Below, piece after piece: positions 12,289 to 29,399 of a stretch of 29,399 nt of DNA. Both the position numbers and the translations under genes were made by a program. The notes below the pieces were generated by a model. That model saw nothing but the letters and a program-made list of their open reading frames with translations. It had not been told where the DNA came from and made no database searches. The stretch is from IMG/VR virus record IMGVR_UViG_3300044742_000190, positions 1 to 29,399 of that record; one strand, given 5' to 3'. The first letter of the stretch is position 1; each line of letters opens with the position of its first letter. The stretch comes from a virus.

Positions 12289-13340
12289 CGCCGCGTCCTC
12301 GCCGCCAGCGCACCCGAGGGTCTCGAGCCGGTCACGCGCGGTGTAAGCACGCTACGCAGGCGAGTCGCCGTCGAGCCGACCGCAGGCGTCCCGGCCACCG
12401 GCGTAGTCCCGGCCGAGATGTTGTCCGACGTGTCAACCGACTTGAGCTGGACGTCGTAGGAGACCCCGTTCGAGAGTCCGGTGATCGTGTAGCCCTCGAG
12501 GCCAGCCGCCACGTCCGCCGCTTTGAACCACGTCCCTGCTGCCGCGCCTCCGGAGTGCTCCACGGCGAACGTCGGGAGCATCCACGTCGCCTCGTACATG
12601 CGCCATGGATCGGTATAGAGCTGGAGGACCTCGGCTGCGCCGAGCACACGGTTCCGCCAGATCCGGATCCCGGCGATCATGCCTGCCAGACGGTTCGAGT
12701 CTGACCGCGCGCCTATCCGTATCGGCTCGATCGTGCCGGCGAAGATCGAGAGCTGCGCGCCGAAGTCCCCGTCTGTGGTGAGCGCGAGTCCGTCCTTGTA
12801 GGCGCGGAAAACTCCCGCGTCGTACGTGAGGACCACGTGCGCCCAGACACCGTTATTGAGGTTACAGTTAGTCGTGAGCTGTATCTCGTTAGCGACCCCG
12901 TCCGAGGAGACCTGGAGCGCGACCTCGTCGCCGTTAACGTAGATCCGCCAGGCACGTCTCCCGTCAGTCGTCGTGTACTTGCCGAGCAGCCCCTGGATGA
13001 TCCCGCTCCCGGCCACGGGGTTGTCGCAGCGGAAGATGATCTCCCAGGACATGCGCGGCTGGCCGTCGACCCACGCAGCGGGTGGAGCGGCTATCGTAAG
13101 TTCCTGGTTCGCGGCTCCGTCGAAGTCGAGGCACGAGCCGTAGGTACTGACGAGCCAGTCTCCGACCGGGTCGAGCGCGGAGCCGAAAACCGCATGCAGG
13201 TTGTGGCCAGACAGGTCCTCGCAGATCCTGCCGCCGTCCCAGAACGGCAGCGCCAGACAGCAACCAGGCCAGAGACCTTGAGCGCGCGGCGCTACGAGTC
13301 CTTTTTGAAATGCCCAGCGTTGCGGCTTGTGGAGCGGCAT
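12285..13340 (-). CDS. LamG-like tail protein with partial Fn3
   Basis: 351 residues. About 28-250 form a concanavalin-like LamG_3 jelly roll, with the typical strands WEIIFRCDN, WAHVVLTYDAGVFRAYKDGL, IRIGARSD and end motif LYTDPWRMYE. Residues 265-325 (GTWFKAADVAAGLEGYTITGLSNGVSYDVQLKSVDTSDN) look like the second half of a fibronectin III domain. The protein ends in a disordered basic tail. LamG domains usually bind carbohydrate, so a receptor-binding role in the virion is likely. The ATG overlaps the HNH gene stop (TAATG); ribosome site weak. Confidence 0.8.
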   Translation of the reverse strand: MPLHKPQRWAFQKGLVAPRAQGLWPGCCLALPFWDGGRICEDLSGHNLHAVFGSALDPVGDWLVSTYGSCLDFDGAANQELTIAAPPAAWVDGQPRMSWEIIFRCDNPVAGSGIIQGLLGKYTTTDGRRAWRIYVNGDEVALQVSSDGVANEIQLTTNCNLNNGVWAHVVLTYDAGVFRAYKDGLALTTDGDFGAQLSIFAGTIEPIRIGARSDSNRLAGMIAGIRIWRNRVLGAAEVLQLYTDPWRMYEATWMLPTFAVEHSGGAAAGTWFKAADVAAGLEGYTITGLSNGVSYDVQLKSVDTSDNISAGTTPVAGTPAVGSTATRLRSVLTPRVTGSRPSGALAARTRR

Positions 13341-14074
13341 TAACCAGGCAGCTCTCCAGAGATAGTCTTCGGCTTCCGCAGCGGAGCGGATAGCGGCTCG
13401 GCTGTCCCACGGAGGTAGGAGATTGCCCGGAGAAGAATGTCTTCGTTGTCTGCAAAGTGGCCAAGTCCAGCGTTGCAGAGGTTACAGAGGAAGCCGCGGA
13501 TTCTGCCTGTGGTGTGGTCGTGGTCCAGGTGCAGCTTTCGGCCGGTTCCGAGACGGTCGCCGCAAATTGCGCAGTCTTCTCCCTGCAAGGCTCTCCAGTA
13601 AGCCTCTGGCTGGCCCTGGTAGTCCGGAGGCGCGAAGCCTCCGTCGCGGGCCATTTCCATTCGCCTATAAACCCTGACCCTCTCTCTGTTATTGGCGCGC
13701 CACCTCGCAACGCTGGCTTTGCACTGTTCCTTGTTTTTCTGGTACTTCTCTTTCGATAGAACGCGCAGTCGATCTTTGTGCTTTGCCTGGTAACGAGCCT
13801 TGGCCCTGTCACGGCAGGCCTTGAACCCCTCGGGATCTTTTGCTTTCCACCGAGCTTCCGCGGCGGCCTGGCTCTCGCGGTTATACCGCCTCTTCACCTT
13901 CTCTGGATGCTCTGCGCGCCAGCGTGCTGCGGCCAATCGCGCCTTCTCTTTTACTTCTGGACGTTGACTGTACGCTTTCTTATAAGCCTTGACTCGGTCG
14001 GGATGCCTCTCTCTGTACCTCTTCATTGCGGCAAGATGGTAGGCACGCCTTTTTTCTTCTTCGGTTGGTTCCAT
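13340..14074 (-). CDS. HNH endonuclease VII-like, with basic repeat domain
   Basis: 244 residues. N-terminal half: a highly basic, repetitive helical segment with recurring RxRxxHPxxVK/RWRAxx units (about 15-140). C-terminal half: recombination endonuclease VII-like HNH, CAICG (168-172), HLDHDH (182-187), CNLCN (197-201). Such proteins are commonly homing endonucleases in phages and nick or cut intron or intergenic sites to spread themselves. Located between two tail genes, with an overlap to the next start (TAATG). The ATG chosen lies 10 nt after the upstream stop; ribosome site weak. It is probably a mobile insertion into the tail cluster. Confidence 0.85.
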   Translation of the reverse strand: MEPTEEEKRRAYHLAAMKRYRERHPDRVKAYKKAYSQRPEVKEKARLAAARWRAEHPEKVKRRYNRESQAAAEARWKAKDPEGFKACRDRAKARYQAKHKDRLRVLSKEKYQKNKEQCKASVARWRANNRERVRVYRRMEMARDGGFAPPDYQGQPEAYWRALQGEDCAICGDRLGTGRKLHLDHDHTTGRIRGFLCNLCNAGLGHFADNEDILLRAISYLRGTAEPLSAPLRKPKTISGELPG

Positions 14075-14084
14075 CTCGCCATTA

Positions 14085-14465
14085 TCACGCACTGGCTTGT
14101 TTGAGTCCACTGAACCTTCCAATGTACGTTCCAGACACACCCGTATTATTAGTCAGTTTTACGCTCGCATACGGACTGAAGAAGACCGTAAAACCCTGCT
14201 TCTTATTCCCAGTCGCAGAGAACGGTATCCTAAAAGTCTGGTCGGCCTCTGTGTCCTTGTTGGTGCCGTTGTCGCACGATCCGAATATCTGAACGACAAC
14301 GTCTCCGGCCGGTGACCCAGACGCGATATCGAAGTCGATCTGGCCACGCATGCCGAAATAGCCTGCTGCGTCAAGGTCCACGTTTTCTGTGGCGGTCCCA
14401 CCGTTCGTCACGACACTCGAAGAGTGAAGCGTTCCGTTCGTCCATTCGCCTGTGAAGGTAGCCAT
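14085..14465 (-). CDS. Hypothetical beta-rich structural protein
   Basis: 126 residues, mainly beta strands, polar, Gly/Thr/Asn-rich, without enzyme motifs (MATFTGEWTNGTLHSS; DVVVQIFGSCDNGTN; GFTVFFSPYASVKLTNNTGVS). Composition and location suggest a small virion protein such as a fibre cap or decoration protein. GGAAG precedes the ATG. Its stop is followed after 10 nt by the HNH gene. Confidence 0.68.
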   Translation of the reverse strand: MATFTGEWTNGTLHSSSVVTNGGTATENVDLDAAGYFGMRGQIDFDIASGSPAGDVVVQIFGSCDNGTNKDTEADQTFRIPFSATGNKKQGFTVFFSPYASVKLTNNTGVSGTYIGRFSGLKQASA

Positions 14466-25248: not shown

Positions 25249-27456
25249 CTACGCCGCCCTCAGTTGCTCGCGGTAGTTGGACGACTCCCGTACTCCCTGC
25301 GCGACGGCCTGCCTGATCTGCTCGACGTTCCGCGCAAAGAGCGCCTTCTCGCCGATCGTGCCGTTGTAGTTCACGGTCACGTTCACGACCTGGCTGTTGC
25401 CGCCGCGTGCGCCGACCGTCTGGACGCCCAGGTCCCCGCGACTGTTCCGCATGAGCGGCAGGACTGCTTCGGGCCGGCCAGCCTCGGCTATCTGGAAGGT
25501 TCCGCCTGGAGGCGCGATCACGTCGCCACGCGCGAGGCCAGGAACACGCTCGGGCGACCCGGCTATGACTCCACCCTGCGCAAAGGCGAGGCCGCCAATA
25601 GAGCCAAGCGAGGACTGAACCGCCTTCAAGATCAGCGTCTGGATTATGATCCGCTGAATGTCGTTCAGCGTGCTCTTGGCGAAGTCTCGGAAGGCTTCCT
25701 TGGCGCTTTTCGTTCCTTCTGCGACCGCGATGAGGCCGTCTGAGAGGTTCGTGGCCAGCGCGTCAGATACACCGAGAACAGCGTCACGCGCCGCGAACCC
25801 AAACTCCTTCGAGTCCTCGCGCAGCTTGCTGAAGGCACCAGTGAGTCCGCTCACGGCGTTCTGGGCACGTTGGAGCTGTGCCTCTTCGTCCGCGGCGAGC
25901 CTCAGTTGCTCGTTACGACGGCCAGCGAACTCCTGCTGCGCCTCTATGAGCTCTTGAGACTGACGCAAGCGCTTCCTGAAAGCCTTGTCCTCTGCGGCGT
26001 TCAGCTCCTCTACCGCCAGCCTGCGATCGTCCAGCGCCTTGAGCTCGGCAAGGCCAGAGACCACCAGCGCCCTCCCGCCATCCACCGTCGCTGCAACGCG
26101 GTCCTTGACCGAACGAACCAGATCCTTGAGTACCTTGTCCTGGTCCTCATAGGCTTCCGTCAGCTTCTCCGTTGGAAGAAGCGGCACAAGCTCATTCGAC
26201 AGGGCCAGAGCTTTGTTGTTTTTCAGTACCTCTTCCTGGGCATCCGCCACTCCGCGTATCGCGTCGGCTGCGGCCTTGGCGCCCCTCTCGACACCACCAG
26301 AGGCAAGCTCTGCCTGCTTGGCCTGCGCTGTGGAGAGATCGGCGCTTCGCTGCGTTATGTCGTTCAGCTCTTTCTGAGCGGCTGCCAGAGCTGCTTGTTC
26401 CTTCCGCCGCTCTGCGAAGATCGCAGCCGACCTCGTCGGGTCGCCAAAGATATCGACGCCCTGGTCGCTGAGCTTCGTCAGTTGATCGTTGAGCGCTTCG
26501 ATGCGCCGCTGGATCTTGTTAACCTCGTTTGTGGCACTGTTGAAGTTGAAATCAGTCAGCGCAGTCTGCGCGAAGTTTACAACTTCGCTTATACCCTGGA
26601 ATGTCTTCCCGACGATCGTTCCGAACTCACCTGCGGACTGTATAATGTCCGCGAAGAAACGCAGAATCGCAGGTCTGTTCGCTACGAGGCTTTCAGTAGC
26701 AGACGTAAATATCCTCGAAAGCTCTGGCAGTAGCGGAAGGATTACCTGATTTCGGAACCCCTTAAGCGCGCCGGAAAGCTCCCCGATTGCGTCGTTGAAC
26801 TTGTCTGCACCGGCTGCTGCTGGACCCGAAATCGAAAGGCCAAGCTCGCGCGCCTTCTTCGTGGCGGCGTCGAGGTCCTCGGCGAAGAGCTGGAGGAAGG
26901 AACCGCCGCCTCGGCCGAACAACTTCGAGGTGACGAAGAGCTTCTCGGACTCAGGCAACGCACGGATCGCACGCGCCGTGGCCAGGAACTTGTCCGAGAG
27001 CGAGGCGTTCGACGTGAGCAGATCCTGCGTCTGCTGGTCGAGCTGCTTCAGTGCCTTGAGCGCAGGCCCGCCGCCAGTCGCAGCGATCTCGCCCAGGTTC
27101 TTCCCGAGCGTCCGAATACCGACCTCGAGCTCCCCGATACCCACGCCTGCCTGGCCGCCGGCGAACTGAAGCTCGGACAAGAACTCCGTCGAGGTCCCGA
27201 GCTGCTTCGAAAGGTCGCGCAGGCTGTCGGCCTCGTTGGCAGTCGCCTTGACCAGATCGGTAAGGCCCTTGATCGTGAAAGCCACGCCGAGGCCAGCGAG
27301 AGCGCCCTTGAGGGAGAAGACAGCGCCTGTGACGCTCTTGAACGCGCCAAGAGCGCCGGAGCCGAAACCCTTGACGACGGAGTTTAGCTTGCCGAATTGG
27401 GCCGAGGCGAAATCGCGAAGGCGCACCTCAATATTGAGCTGTTCGGAGCTAGCCAC
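25249..27456 (-). CDS. Tape measure protein
   Basis: 735 residues. N-terminal hydrophobic segments (GSGALGAFKSVTGAVFSLKG), long alpha-helical middle with Ala/Gln-rich coils, and a C-terminal Gly-rich hydrophobic part. The extreme end (VVNVTVNYNGTIGEKALFAR, then YREQLRAA) is the typical TMP tail. It sets tail length and is ejected with the DNA. GTG start with AGAGG seven bases upstream; the start overlaps the GT frameshift product by 8 nt. Short for the family, suggesting a tail of modest length. Ends in TAG. Confidence 0.93.
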   Translation of the reverse strand: MASSEQLNIEVRLRDFASAQFGKLNSVVKGFGSGALGAFKSVTGAVFSLKGALAGLGVAFTIKGLTDLVKATANEADSLRDLSKQLGTSTEFLSELQFAGGQAGVGIGELEVGIRTLGKNLGEIAATGGGPALKALKQLDQQTQDLLTSNASLSDKFLATARAIRALPESEKLFVTSKLFGRGGGSFLQLFAEDLDAATKKARELGLSISGPAAAGADKFNDAIGELSGALKGFRNQVILPLLPELSRIFTSATESLVANRPAILRFFADIIQSAGEFGTIVGKTFQGISEVVNFAQTALTDFNFNSATNEVNKIQRRIEALNDQLTKLSDQGVDIFGDPTRSAAIFAERRKEQAALAAAQKELNDITQRSADLSTAQAKQAELASGGVERGAKAAADAIRGVADAQEEVLKNNKALALSNELVPLLPTEKLTEAYEDQDKVLKDLVRSVKDRVAATVDGGRALVVSGLAELKALDDRRLAVEELNAAEDKAFRKRLRQSQELIEAQQEFAGRRNEQLRLAADEEAQLQRAQNAVSGLTGAFSKLREDSKEFGFAARDAVLGVSDALATNLSDGLIAVAEGTKSAKEAFRDFAKSTLNDIQRIIIQTLILKAVQSSLGSIGGLAFAQGGVIAGSPERVPGLARGDVIAPPGGTFQIAEAGRPEAVLPLMRNSRGDLGVQTVGARGGNSQVVNVTVNYNGTIGEKALFARNVEQIRQAVAQGVRESSNYREQLRAA

Positions 27457-28194
27457 TGGCAGGCCTCTTGTCCATGGCTTCCTGCATCAGTTGTTTCGCC
27501 CGATCAAGGAGACGCATGGCAAACAAATACGCTGCCGGCTGCTGATATAGTCCTCCCGCGAAAGGAAAAGCTCGCGGCCACAGGTCATGCAGCGACAGAA
27601 ACTCCCAACACCAGGAGGTATCGAAGCTCGAAGGACAGGCGTCGACTGGCTGGTACCCGTAGCCGAAGCAGAGCTGGCAAGAGCTATCAAAGCCATCGCA
27701 GCCAGTGCAAGGGACGACAAGGAAGCCATCAGAAGGCCAGATGCATACACCGTCGCTTCGCTCTCCTCCGCATCCGTCGTGTCTGGCGCATCCACGTGGT
27801 ATCTCGAGTCCTGTCTGGAAGGTTGCGCCGTAGCTCCTGGCTACGGCTATCAGGAGTTTTTTGCGGCGTCCTCCGTGAATCGCGTCTTGTCAAGGATCGC
27901 GTTGGCAAGCTCGATCGCGTATGGCTGGACGTTGTCGAGCGTGTCCTTGTGGAGCACGTTCGTCTTCTTGAACTCAATCTCGCTACCGTTCTCGTTCAAG
28001 AAATTCGTCCACCCCAGAAGGCCGTAGTTGAGAACCTTACGGATCGTTACGAGCGTGTTCTGCTCCGAGACAACTTCCTCTCGCTCGCTCCACGTGAGCG
28101 TTCTCAGCCTGTAGACCGTTTGCTTGCTGCGATCAAGATCCTTGTCGCACTTGCAAACGTAGTCGAATTCACCTAGCGACGGCGCGACAGGCAT
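27449..28194 (-). CDS. Tail assembly chaperone GT, made by -1 frameshift
   Basis: Starting with the G frame (28194) and slipping -1 at A AAA AAC (27862-27856), the ribosome reads 135 further codons to TAG at 27451-27449. The extension has the hallmarks of lambda T-like domains: Cys-rich zinc-like motifs (VPCTGCDGFDSSCQLCFGYG, then ACP) and a C-terminal FAGGLYQQPAAYLFAMRLLD. The fused product of about 248 residues would partner the tape measure during tail assembly. The extension overlaps the tape-measure start by 8 nt. Other frames in this stretch, including a longer-looking one at 27487-27795, lack these features. The join and slip site are read directly; the ratio of products is unknown. 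Confidence 0.85.
27827..27862 (-). promoter_or_regulatory. -1 ribosomal frameshift signal with hairpin
   Basis: Slippery heptamer A AAA AAC in zero-frame phase GCA AAA AAC (27864-27856), then an 8-nt spacer, then a perfect 8-bp stem GCCGTAGC/GCTACGGC (27847-27840 and 27834-27827) with loop CAGGA (27839-27835). The loop is complementary to TCCTG (27855-27851), which lies directly after the slip site, so an H-type pseudoknot or alternative stem is possible. Confidence 0.8.
27850..28194 (-). CDS. Tail assembly chaperone G
   Basis: 114 residues, the unshifted product. Polar and helical, with a long central helix (LTWSEREEVVSEQNTLVTIRK) and NYGLLGWTNFLNENG, consistent with phage tail-chaperone G proteins. 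Its end DAAKNS lies on the slippery site; normal termination gives G, frameshift gives GT. Strong site GAGGAG five bases before ATG, which overlaps the stop of the preceding gene (TGATG). Confidence 0.82.
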   Translation of the reverse strand: MPVAPSLGEFDYVCKCDKDLDRSKQTVYRLRTLTWSEREEVVSEQNTLVTIRKVLNYGLLGWTNFLNENGSEIEFKKTNVLHKDTLDNVQPYAIELANAILDKTRFTEDAAKNS

Positions 28195-28472
28195 CAGTCT
28201 CCTCTAAGTTGTTCTCTGTACGGCCCAGAACGCTTAAGCTGGTCCGCGACAGCCTGTTGAATCTGCTCTCGATTCCTCTTGAAGAGTTCACGCTCTCCGT
28301 TGACGTTCACAACGACGACGGTCTTAAGCTCTGAGACTTCCTTCCTCAGAGCCGCCAGCGCTTCGCTAAAACCTACGCAACACGCGCAGCAATTCGAGCG
28401 CTCACCTAAAAGCACTTGCTCTGGCTTGATCACGCCGCCAGTGGCGAATCCGTCACCGGTAGTACAGGACAT
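28194..28472 (-). CDS. Small protein with tape-measure-like C-terminus
   Basis: 92 residues. It starts MSCTTGDGFATGGVIKPEQV, has a Cys-rich NCCACC, a short helix, and ends VVVVNVNGERELFKRN.. EQIQQAVADQLKRSGPYREQ. That ending matches the last ~45 residues of the tape measure (VVNVTVNYNG..; NVEQIRQAVAQG; YREQLRAA) and the FATGGVI segment matches FAQGGVI in the tape measure, so this is a second, free-standing TMP C-terminus. Starts inside the tail-tube gene's last codons (20-nt overlap), weak site GAGG. It may act in tail initiation or termination. Confidence 0.72.
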   Translation of the reverse strand: MSCTTGDGFATGGVIKPEQVLLGERSNCCACCVGFSEALAALRKEVSELKTVVVVNVNGERELFKRNREQIQQAVADQLKRSGPYREQLRGD

Positions 28473-29399
28473 AGTCCTCGTCCAGAGCAACCGACCTATT
28501 CAAAAACACCGTCAACCCAGCCGTCTGCCTTCCCGCTCGCACGCCTTCCGAGTGCTCCCGAATCTGGCACTTCGTTGCCGCAATCTCGATCAGGTTCGGA
28601 GTCGTCCCGACAATGATCGAGCACGTGAACTCGTTGCCTGAGCTCAACAGGCCGTAGTCGTCGAACACGCTCGTCTTCTGGCGCAGCGGTCCGATCGTCA
28701 GCTTCGGCTCGCGGCGTGCGATCCGGCTTGCTATGTAGCCGCTCACTCCGCCGGACGTCGTCGGGTCAGGGTCGCTCTCGATCACGTTCCCGAAGTCGAG
28801 CGCGAACGAGTCCGGTATGATCGGCACCCCGTTCAGCTGGACGACGGCGTTCAGGAACTTCGGAGCGTTCCCGGTCTCGTAGGTGAACCCCGTGAAGAAC
28901 GAACCCGCTCCAATGAAATCGAGCGGTCCCGTGAACTCGGCGTTGAACCTGATCGCGTCAAGTGCCGCGCCGCTGATCGAGCCTGTGCCGGCCGATCCAC
29001 GCAGCCGATAGAGCTGGTCCTCGGCTGACGTTCCCTCGCTATTCTTCGCCGCACGCTGGATCGTCAGGTTCTGGAGGCCGCTCGAGCGCGGCTTGTACTT
29101 GACGGCGTAGAAAGTGCTGGTGCCGGAAGTCGTCGTCGACTCGGCACCAACAGTCACCACGTCCGACGCAGCCAGGTTGCCGCCAGTCAGGACGATATAG
29201 CGCATGGCACCAGCGCCGTTACGGTCCGCCTCGACAATGCCGGTCTTCGAGCCGGTGGCCGAGTAGATCGACCCGGCCGTAAGAGTGCCGTCACCGCCTG
29301 TAATCGCGCCTACCGTGATCTGGCTCACGATCTGCTCTTGCAAGCCGCAGCCACGGAGATACGTCCCGAGAGCGGGAGGAGTGCCGACGACACCGCTTG
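28453..29399 (-). CDS. Major tail tube protein (5' end beyond window)
   Basis: Partial gene; the frame stays open to the right edge, and the incoming residues (SGVVGTPPALGTYLRGCGLQ) match the start region of phage tail tube proteins (GTPPALGxxLRACG), so the TTG at 29343 is not the start. Mostly beta-rich with repeated Thr/Gly strands (TGGDGTLTAGSIYSATGSKT; PKLTIGPLRQKTSVFDDYGL) and the ending LNRSVALDEDYVLYYR, consistent with a tail-tube subunit. It precedes the chaperone and tape-measure genes as expected. Stop TGA. Confidence 0.82.
   Translation of the reverse strand, partial: SGVVGTPPALGTYLRGCGLQEQIVSQITVGAITGGDGTLTAGSIYSATGSKTGIVEADRNGAGAMRYIVLTGGNLAASDVVTVGAESTTTSGTSTFYAVKYKPRSSGLQNLTIQRAAKNSEGTSAEDQLYRLRGSAGTGSISGAALDAIRFNAEFTGPLDFIGAGSFFTGFTYETGNAPKFLNAVVQLNGVPIIPDSFALDFGNVIESDPDPTTSGGVSGYIASRIARREPKLTIGPLRQKTSVFDDYGLLSSGNEFTCSIIVGTTPNLIEIAATKCQIREHSEGVRAGRQTAGLTVFLNRSVALDEDYVLYYR

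Follow-up and report, generated by a model that had tools for sequence, protein, structure and literature searches.

How the second of two overlapping open reading frames comes to be expressed is the question raised by the tail region of an uncultured virus, IMGVR_UViG_3300044742_000190, of which positions 1 to 29,399, a stretch of 29,399 bases referred to here as the window, were analysed. Both frames lie on the minus strand directly upstream of a tape-measure gene, and the same order is found in two related loci (L001 and L002, see below). The first of them, the G ORF (27850..28194), is preceded by an SD-like GAGGAG and yields by standard decoding a putative short tail assembly chaperone of 114 aa, with a computed mass of 13.1 kDa. 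The second, the T region (27449..27861, minus strand), is a −1-frame extension of about 135 codons. The gene that follows (25249..27456, minus strand) encodes a protein of 735 aa which matched PHROG 8462 (tail length tape measure protein) with an E value of 7.4e-26, as well as further tape-measure PHROGs. A preliminary description of this DNA had proposed that a programmed −1 frameshift joins G and T in the tail chaperone, and the comparison with four relatives strongly supports this proposal; we put at roughly 93% the probability that the locus encodes, as predicted, a tail assembly chaperone of the lambda G/GT type by means of programmed −1 frameshifting.

The candidate slip site is the heptamer A AAA AAC at 27862-27856 (27856..27862, minus strand), found, as had been described, at the end of the G ORF and in the X XXY YYZ phase, the zero frame of G ending in GCA AAA AAC TCC TGA with its UGA stop at 27852-27850. 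In the −1 frame, the preceding stop codon lies at 27892-27890, and reading is possible from 27889 down to a TAG at 27451-27449; from the slip site onwards, 137 codons are available up to the tape-measure gene, close to the 135 codons reported previously. The predicted GT fusion comprises 248 aa and 27.8 kDa, close to the ~27 kDa initially estimated. Heptamers of this kind are rare in phase: in the 18 ORFs of the window that were taken to be genes, with 7101 codons in all, just two had AAA or TTT as YYY, the other one being a GGGTTTC within the tape-measure gene, and the chance of finding one such in-phase heptamer within 12 given codons is about 0.003. Openness of the −1 frame, expected from base composition in about 0.8% of cases, is by itself weak and only modestly informative evidence.

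Relatives of the locus were reached through the tape-measure protein (L001, whose tape-measure protein shares 64% identity with that of the window), a T profile (L002) and a G profile (L034/L035 and L039), while scans of genome contigs with the T and the tape-measure profiles found no relatives. L034 and L035 are near-identical (4 differences in 2174 bases) and were counted once; L039 is distant and has a higher A+T content. L031 and L032, remote relatives by their tape-measure proteins, were excluded, no comparable T homologue being seen in the translated stretch upstream. Each of the four further loci carries homologues of both G and T, the latter in the −1 frame, along with a canonical heptamer at the corresponding position. 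The T protein of the window is 53-62% identical to its closest two homologues, and third positions of the T frame change the most in 6/6 pairs (0.46-0.66 as against 0.22-0.44 at second positions).

The heptamer is A AAA AAC in L002, L034/L035 and L039, and A AAT TTT in L001. This differing heptamer is the strongest single argument for the predicted frameshift, with slipperiness kept and letters not. It also bears on two other ways of reading the frame break, both of which start from the six consecutive A residues in the heptamer of the window. Homopolymers of this length are a common site of indel errors, and a lost or gained A might have split one long gene, either in the assembly or through decay. 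Nevertheless, the same frame relation recurs in independent contigs, one of which (L001) has no long homopolymer at this point, and both halves are conserved, with the excess of third-position change in T described above; an error or decay appears exceedingly improbable. Similarly, a run of six A can make the polymerase slip in some bacteria, so that the second frame might be reached by transcriptional rather than ribosomal slippage. This explanation, which we consider most improbable, has to face the runs of only three and four in A AAT TTT, together with the conservation of a hairpin at ribosomal spacing. Since the L001 heptamer is slippery without a long homopolymer, neither an artefact nor polymerase slippage on A6 explains the family.

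Alternatively, T might be a gene in its own right, translated after re-initiation or through a start codon of its own and never fused to G. Coupling between the two frames is conceivable given the brevity of their overlap, and in L034 and L039 a GTG or TTG lies no more than 18 nt from the slip site. However, the T frame of the window has no ATG, GTG or TTG until 336 nt past the slip site, among its final 26 codons, and a search of the window and its relatives for a shared T-frame start codon found none: the starts are scattered and their positions differ in every relative, the element kept instead being the canonical heptamer. A separate T gene is accordingly very unlikely, and frameshifting is the simplest route to T expression, because no T-frame start codon is common to the relatives.

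Downstream of the heptamer, a predicted stimulatory hairpin with a perfect 8-bp stem and a 5-nt loop (27847-27827; 27827..27847, minus strand) reads GCCGTAGC-CAGGA-GCTACGGC, just as originally noticed. The 8-nt spacer that separates heptamer and stem (TCCTGATA), at 27848..27855 on the minus strand (UCCUGAUA), includes the zero-frame UGA stop. Perfect stems of at least 8 bp located 4-10 nt downstream are found for 0.2% of positions on the same strand, and when the T frame of the window was shuffled synonymously, a comparable stem arose in 2.6% of cases; the same test gave 1.6% for L001 and 0.4% for L002, although these values lack independence because the loci share ancestry. Fold energies were only moderately low in comparison with shuffles (z −0.4 to −2.7). 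In the alignment of the window with L001, L002 and L034, pairing of the stem is kept in 32/32 pair cells, a count based on four loci in which just two pairs vary, each of them changed to a G-U pair in L034. Two-sided compensatory changes were sought in these four sequences and none was found, so the alignment does not show covariation as such. The loop, on the other hand, varies (CAGGA in the window, ACTGA in L001, GAGGA in L002 and GCTGA in L034), as does the length of the spacer, which is 5 nt in L001 and 8 nt in the other three. As read from this alignment, the conserved RNA element is a simple hairpin, since the stem is kept while loop and spacer vary. In addition, one codon is used for 5/6 of the amino acids that are invariant over the hairpin in the window, L001 and L002, as against 21/58 across T (P 0.02). 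L039 has a different, longer stem, which starts 7 nt past its heptamer. The spacers at the window and its relatives fit the distance of 5-9 nt given as usual for stimulating structures in a review of archaeal recoding (PMC8211752). A pattern search of the whole collection for the 8-bp stem returned 25 stretches, among which the layout of slip site and T was found only in two known relatives.

The signal had previously been called pseudoknot-like, on the grounds that the loop CAGGA is complementary to the bases immediately past the slip site. The complementarity is literally present in the window, where UCCUG and CAGGA match exactly and could form an H-type pseudoknot that stimulates an otherwise genuine frameshift. 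In the four aligned sequences, however, pairing is kept in 55% of the cells of this loop-to-spacer helix (8-12/24-28), compared with 100% for the stem (16-23/29-36). Of the five pairs of the loop-to-spacer helix, three are lost in at least two of the three relatives, leaving the pairing broken in L001, L002 and L034 and complete only in the window. The geometry also appears unfavorable: the helix would take up the entire 5-nt loop, with zero nt remaining as a linker to the 3' stem strand, and UCCUG, within the 8 nt past the slip site, would be covered by the slipping ribosome. An alternative pairing of UCCUG with a CAGGA at 27813-27809 was seen in the fold of the window and was absent from the folds of the relatives. 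The UCCUG/CAGGA pseudoknot is hence not supported, and we regard it as very improbable that the frameshift depends on it; this conclusion concerns the proposed helix and not pseudoknots of every kind. The layout had also been contrasted with that of lambda, and that contrast stands for the slip site, which does differ.

With the simple hairpin as the preferred stimulator, a mechanism can be outlined. Most ribosomes would translate G and stop at the UGA at 27852-27850, giving the 13-kDa protein, while a minority, held by the hairpin 8 nt downstream, would shift back by one base at A AAA AAC, with AAA.AAC re-pairing on AAA.AAA, and would then read the −1 frame to the TAG at 27451-27449 to produce the 27.8-kDa fusion. 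By analogy with lambda, G would coat the tape-measure protein encoded just downstream, T would bring in the tail-tube subunit, and the G:GT ratio would set tail assembly. The slip site, the hairpin, the frame relation, their conservation in the relatives and the tape-measure neighbour were all observed here; the occurrence and efficiency of slippage and the roles of G and T are inferred.

The frameshift appears to be an ordinary one, and its assignment to a known kind, in a divergent group of uncultured phages, is well supported. In E. coli dnaX, a −1 frameshift likewise relies on an A-rich heptamer followed by a hairpin, and differs from the present site in its A AAA AAG heptamer, its upstream SD element, and the gene and purpose that it serves. 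The lambda G/GT tail assembly chaperone is a close comparison (Levin 1993; Xu 2004, 2013, 2014, as reviewed in PMC5009743), with a short ORF, a −1 shift near its 3' end, a long extension and a tape-measure gene directly downstream. The lambda slip site, in contrast, is G GGA AAG instead of A AAA AAC, and the window has a strong simple hairpin, a Cys-rich extension and no detectable sequence similarity to lambda. Classing the locus as lambda-type thus depends on the order of the genes and the arrangement of the frames, with the predicted fold in support, and not on a sequence match. Low-level −1 frameshifting between G and T is widely conserved in long-tailed phages despite low sequence similarity (PMC5009743). 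Nor is A AAA AAC new for such genes: the identical heptamer was already reported for the corresponding g-t frameshift of HCTV-2, though HCTV-1, -2 and -5 are haloarchaeal siphoviruses (PMC5009743). The likeness to the window phage lies in the heptamer and the corresponding genes, and no tblastn hit in the phage collection pointed to relatedness. In E. coli, which may not be the host here, slippage on A AAA AAC is far less efficient than on A AAA AAG (PMC5009743). The general picture of G/GT frameshifting is left unchanged by our data, which extend it to an uncultured phage group and to a chaperone with no match in protein-family libraries. Moreover, one slippery heptamer has naturally been exchanged for another at the same site, so that the contributions of heptamer, spacer and hairpin can be tested relative to one another.

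Searches with G against Pfam, PHROG and NCBIfam models, as well as tblastn against the phage collection, gave no match. An AlphaFold model of G, built from three sequences, reached a pLDDT of 81, the other four models being worse. Its Foldseek matches were viral proteins, some of them named tail assembly chaperones, with E values of 0.04 to 0.2, including the tail assembly chaperone of Gordonia phage Teatealatte (probability 0.99, E 0.04) and the tape-measure chaperone of Caulobacter phage Sansa (probability 0.57); the single match with E < 0.001 was a protein without a name, and a fold search of the PDB with the model returned no match. The predicted fold of G would therefore resemble those of phage tail assembly chaperones, a supportive though not conclusive result.

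As for T, no Pfam, PHROG or NCBIfam model matched it, so that the view of its Cys-rich and AGGLYQQPAAY motifs as typical of T domains was left unconfirmed; as far as tested, these motifs are family-specific. Direct searches of viral contigs and tblastn searches of phage records, with either the T extension or the GT fusion, were likewise negative, and a match to ribosomal L32 chains was weak and below threshold (E 0.06). The structure model of T, with a pLDDT of 39, was too poor for interpretation. T carries a CxxC-x6-CxxC knuckle and, near its end, a GGLYQQPA motif. The knuckle is present in the window, L001 and L034, replaced by a CxC variant in L002 and largely absent in L039, and may constitute a zinc-binding site. 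It is conceivable, though we hold it rather doubtful, that these phages form a divergent lineage in which a zinc-binding T knuckle is combined with an exchange of heptamers (A AAA AAC / A AAT TTT) over a simple hairpin that stayed conserved; if so, the zinc-knuckle T would be a metal-dependent variant that binds the tail-tube subunit differently from that of lambda. A conserved C-terminal motif, P-x-[AS]-GG-x3-Q-x-A, after which come AM and a helix rich in Lys/Arg, occurs in the window (27449-27570), L001, L002, L034 and L039, and its region is the stretch most clearly common to T and the distant L039.

Several further features of the surroundings were observed. The stop codon of T and the GTG start of the tape-measure gene overlap at 27449-27456 of the window (GTGGCTAG). 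Since this overlap recurs in L001 (GTGGCTAA) and L002 (ATGGCTGA), the sequences suggest that the tape-measure gene could be translationally coupled to the frameshifted reading. Upstream of G, an ORF of 296 aa (28453-29343) resembles by eye a 395-aa protein of L001 and a 396-aa protein of L034; family searches with the 296-aa and the 395-aa proteins returned no match, and by its position the ORF is probably the gene for the major tail protein. Downstream of the tail genes, an endonuclease VII-like gene was detected at 13340-14140 (PHROG 2914, E 6e-24). Finally, three contigs from metagenome 3300036851 are interrupted within G (L037 and L038 at their 3' ends, L002 at its 5' end) and share an identical 127-nt overlap, as if the assembly graph had split there between two strains differing at the start of G.
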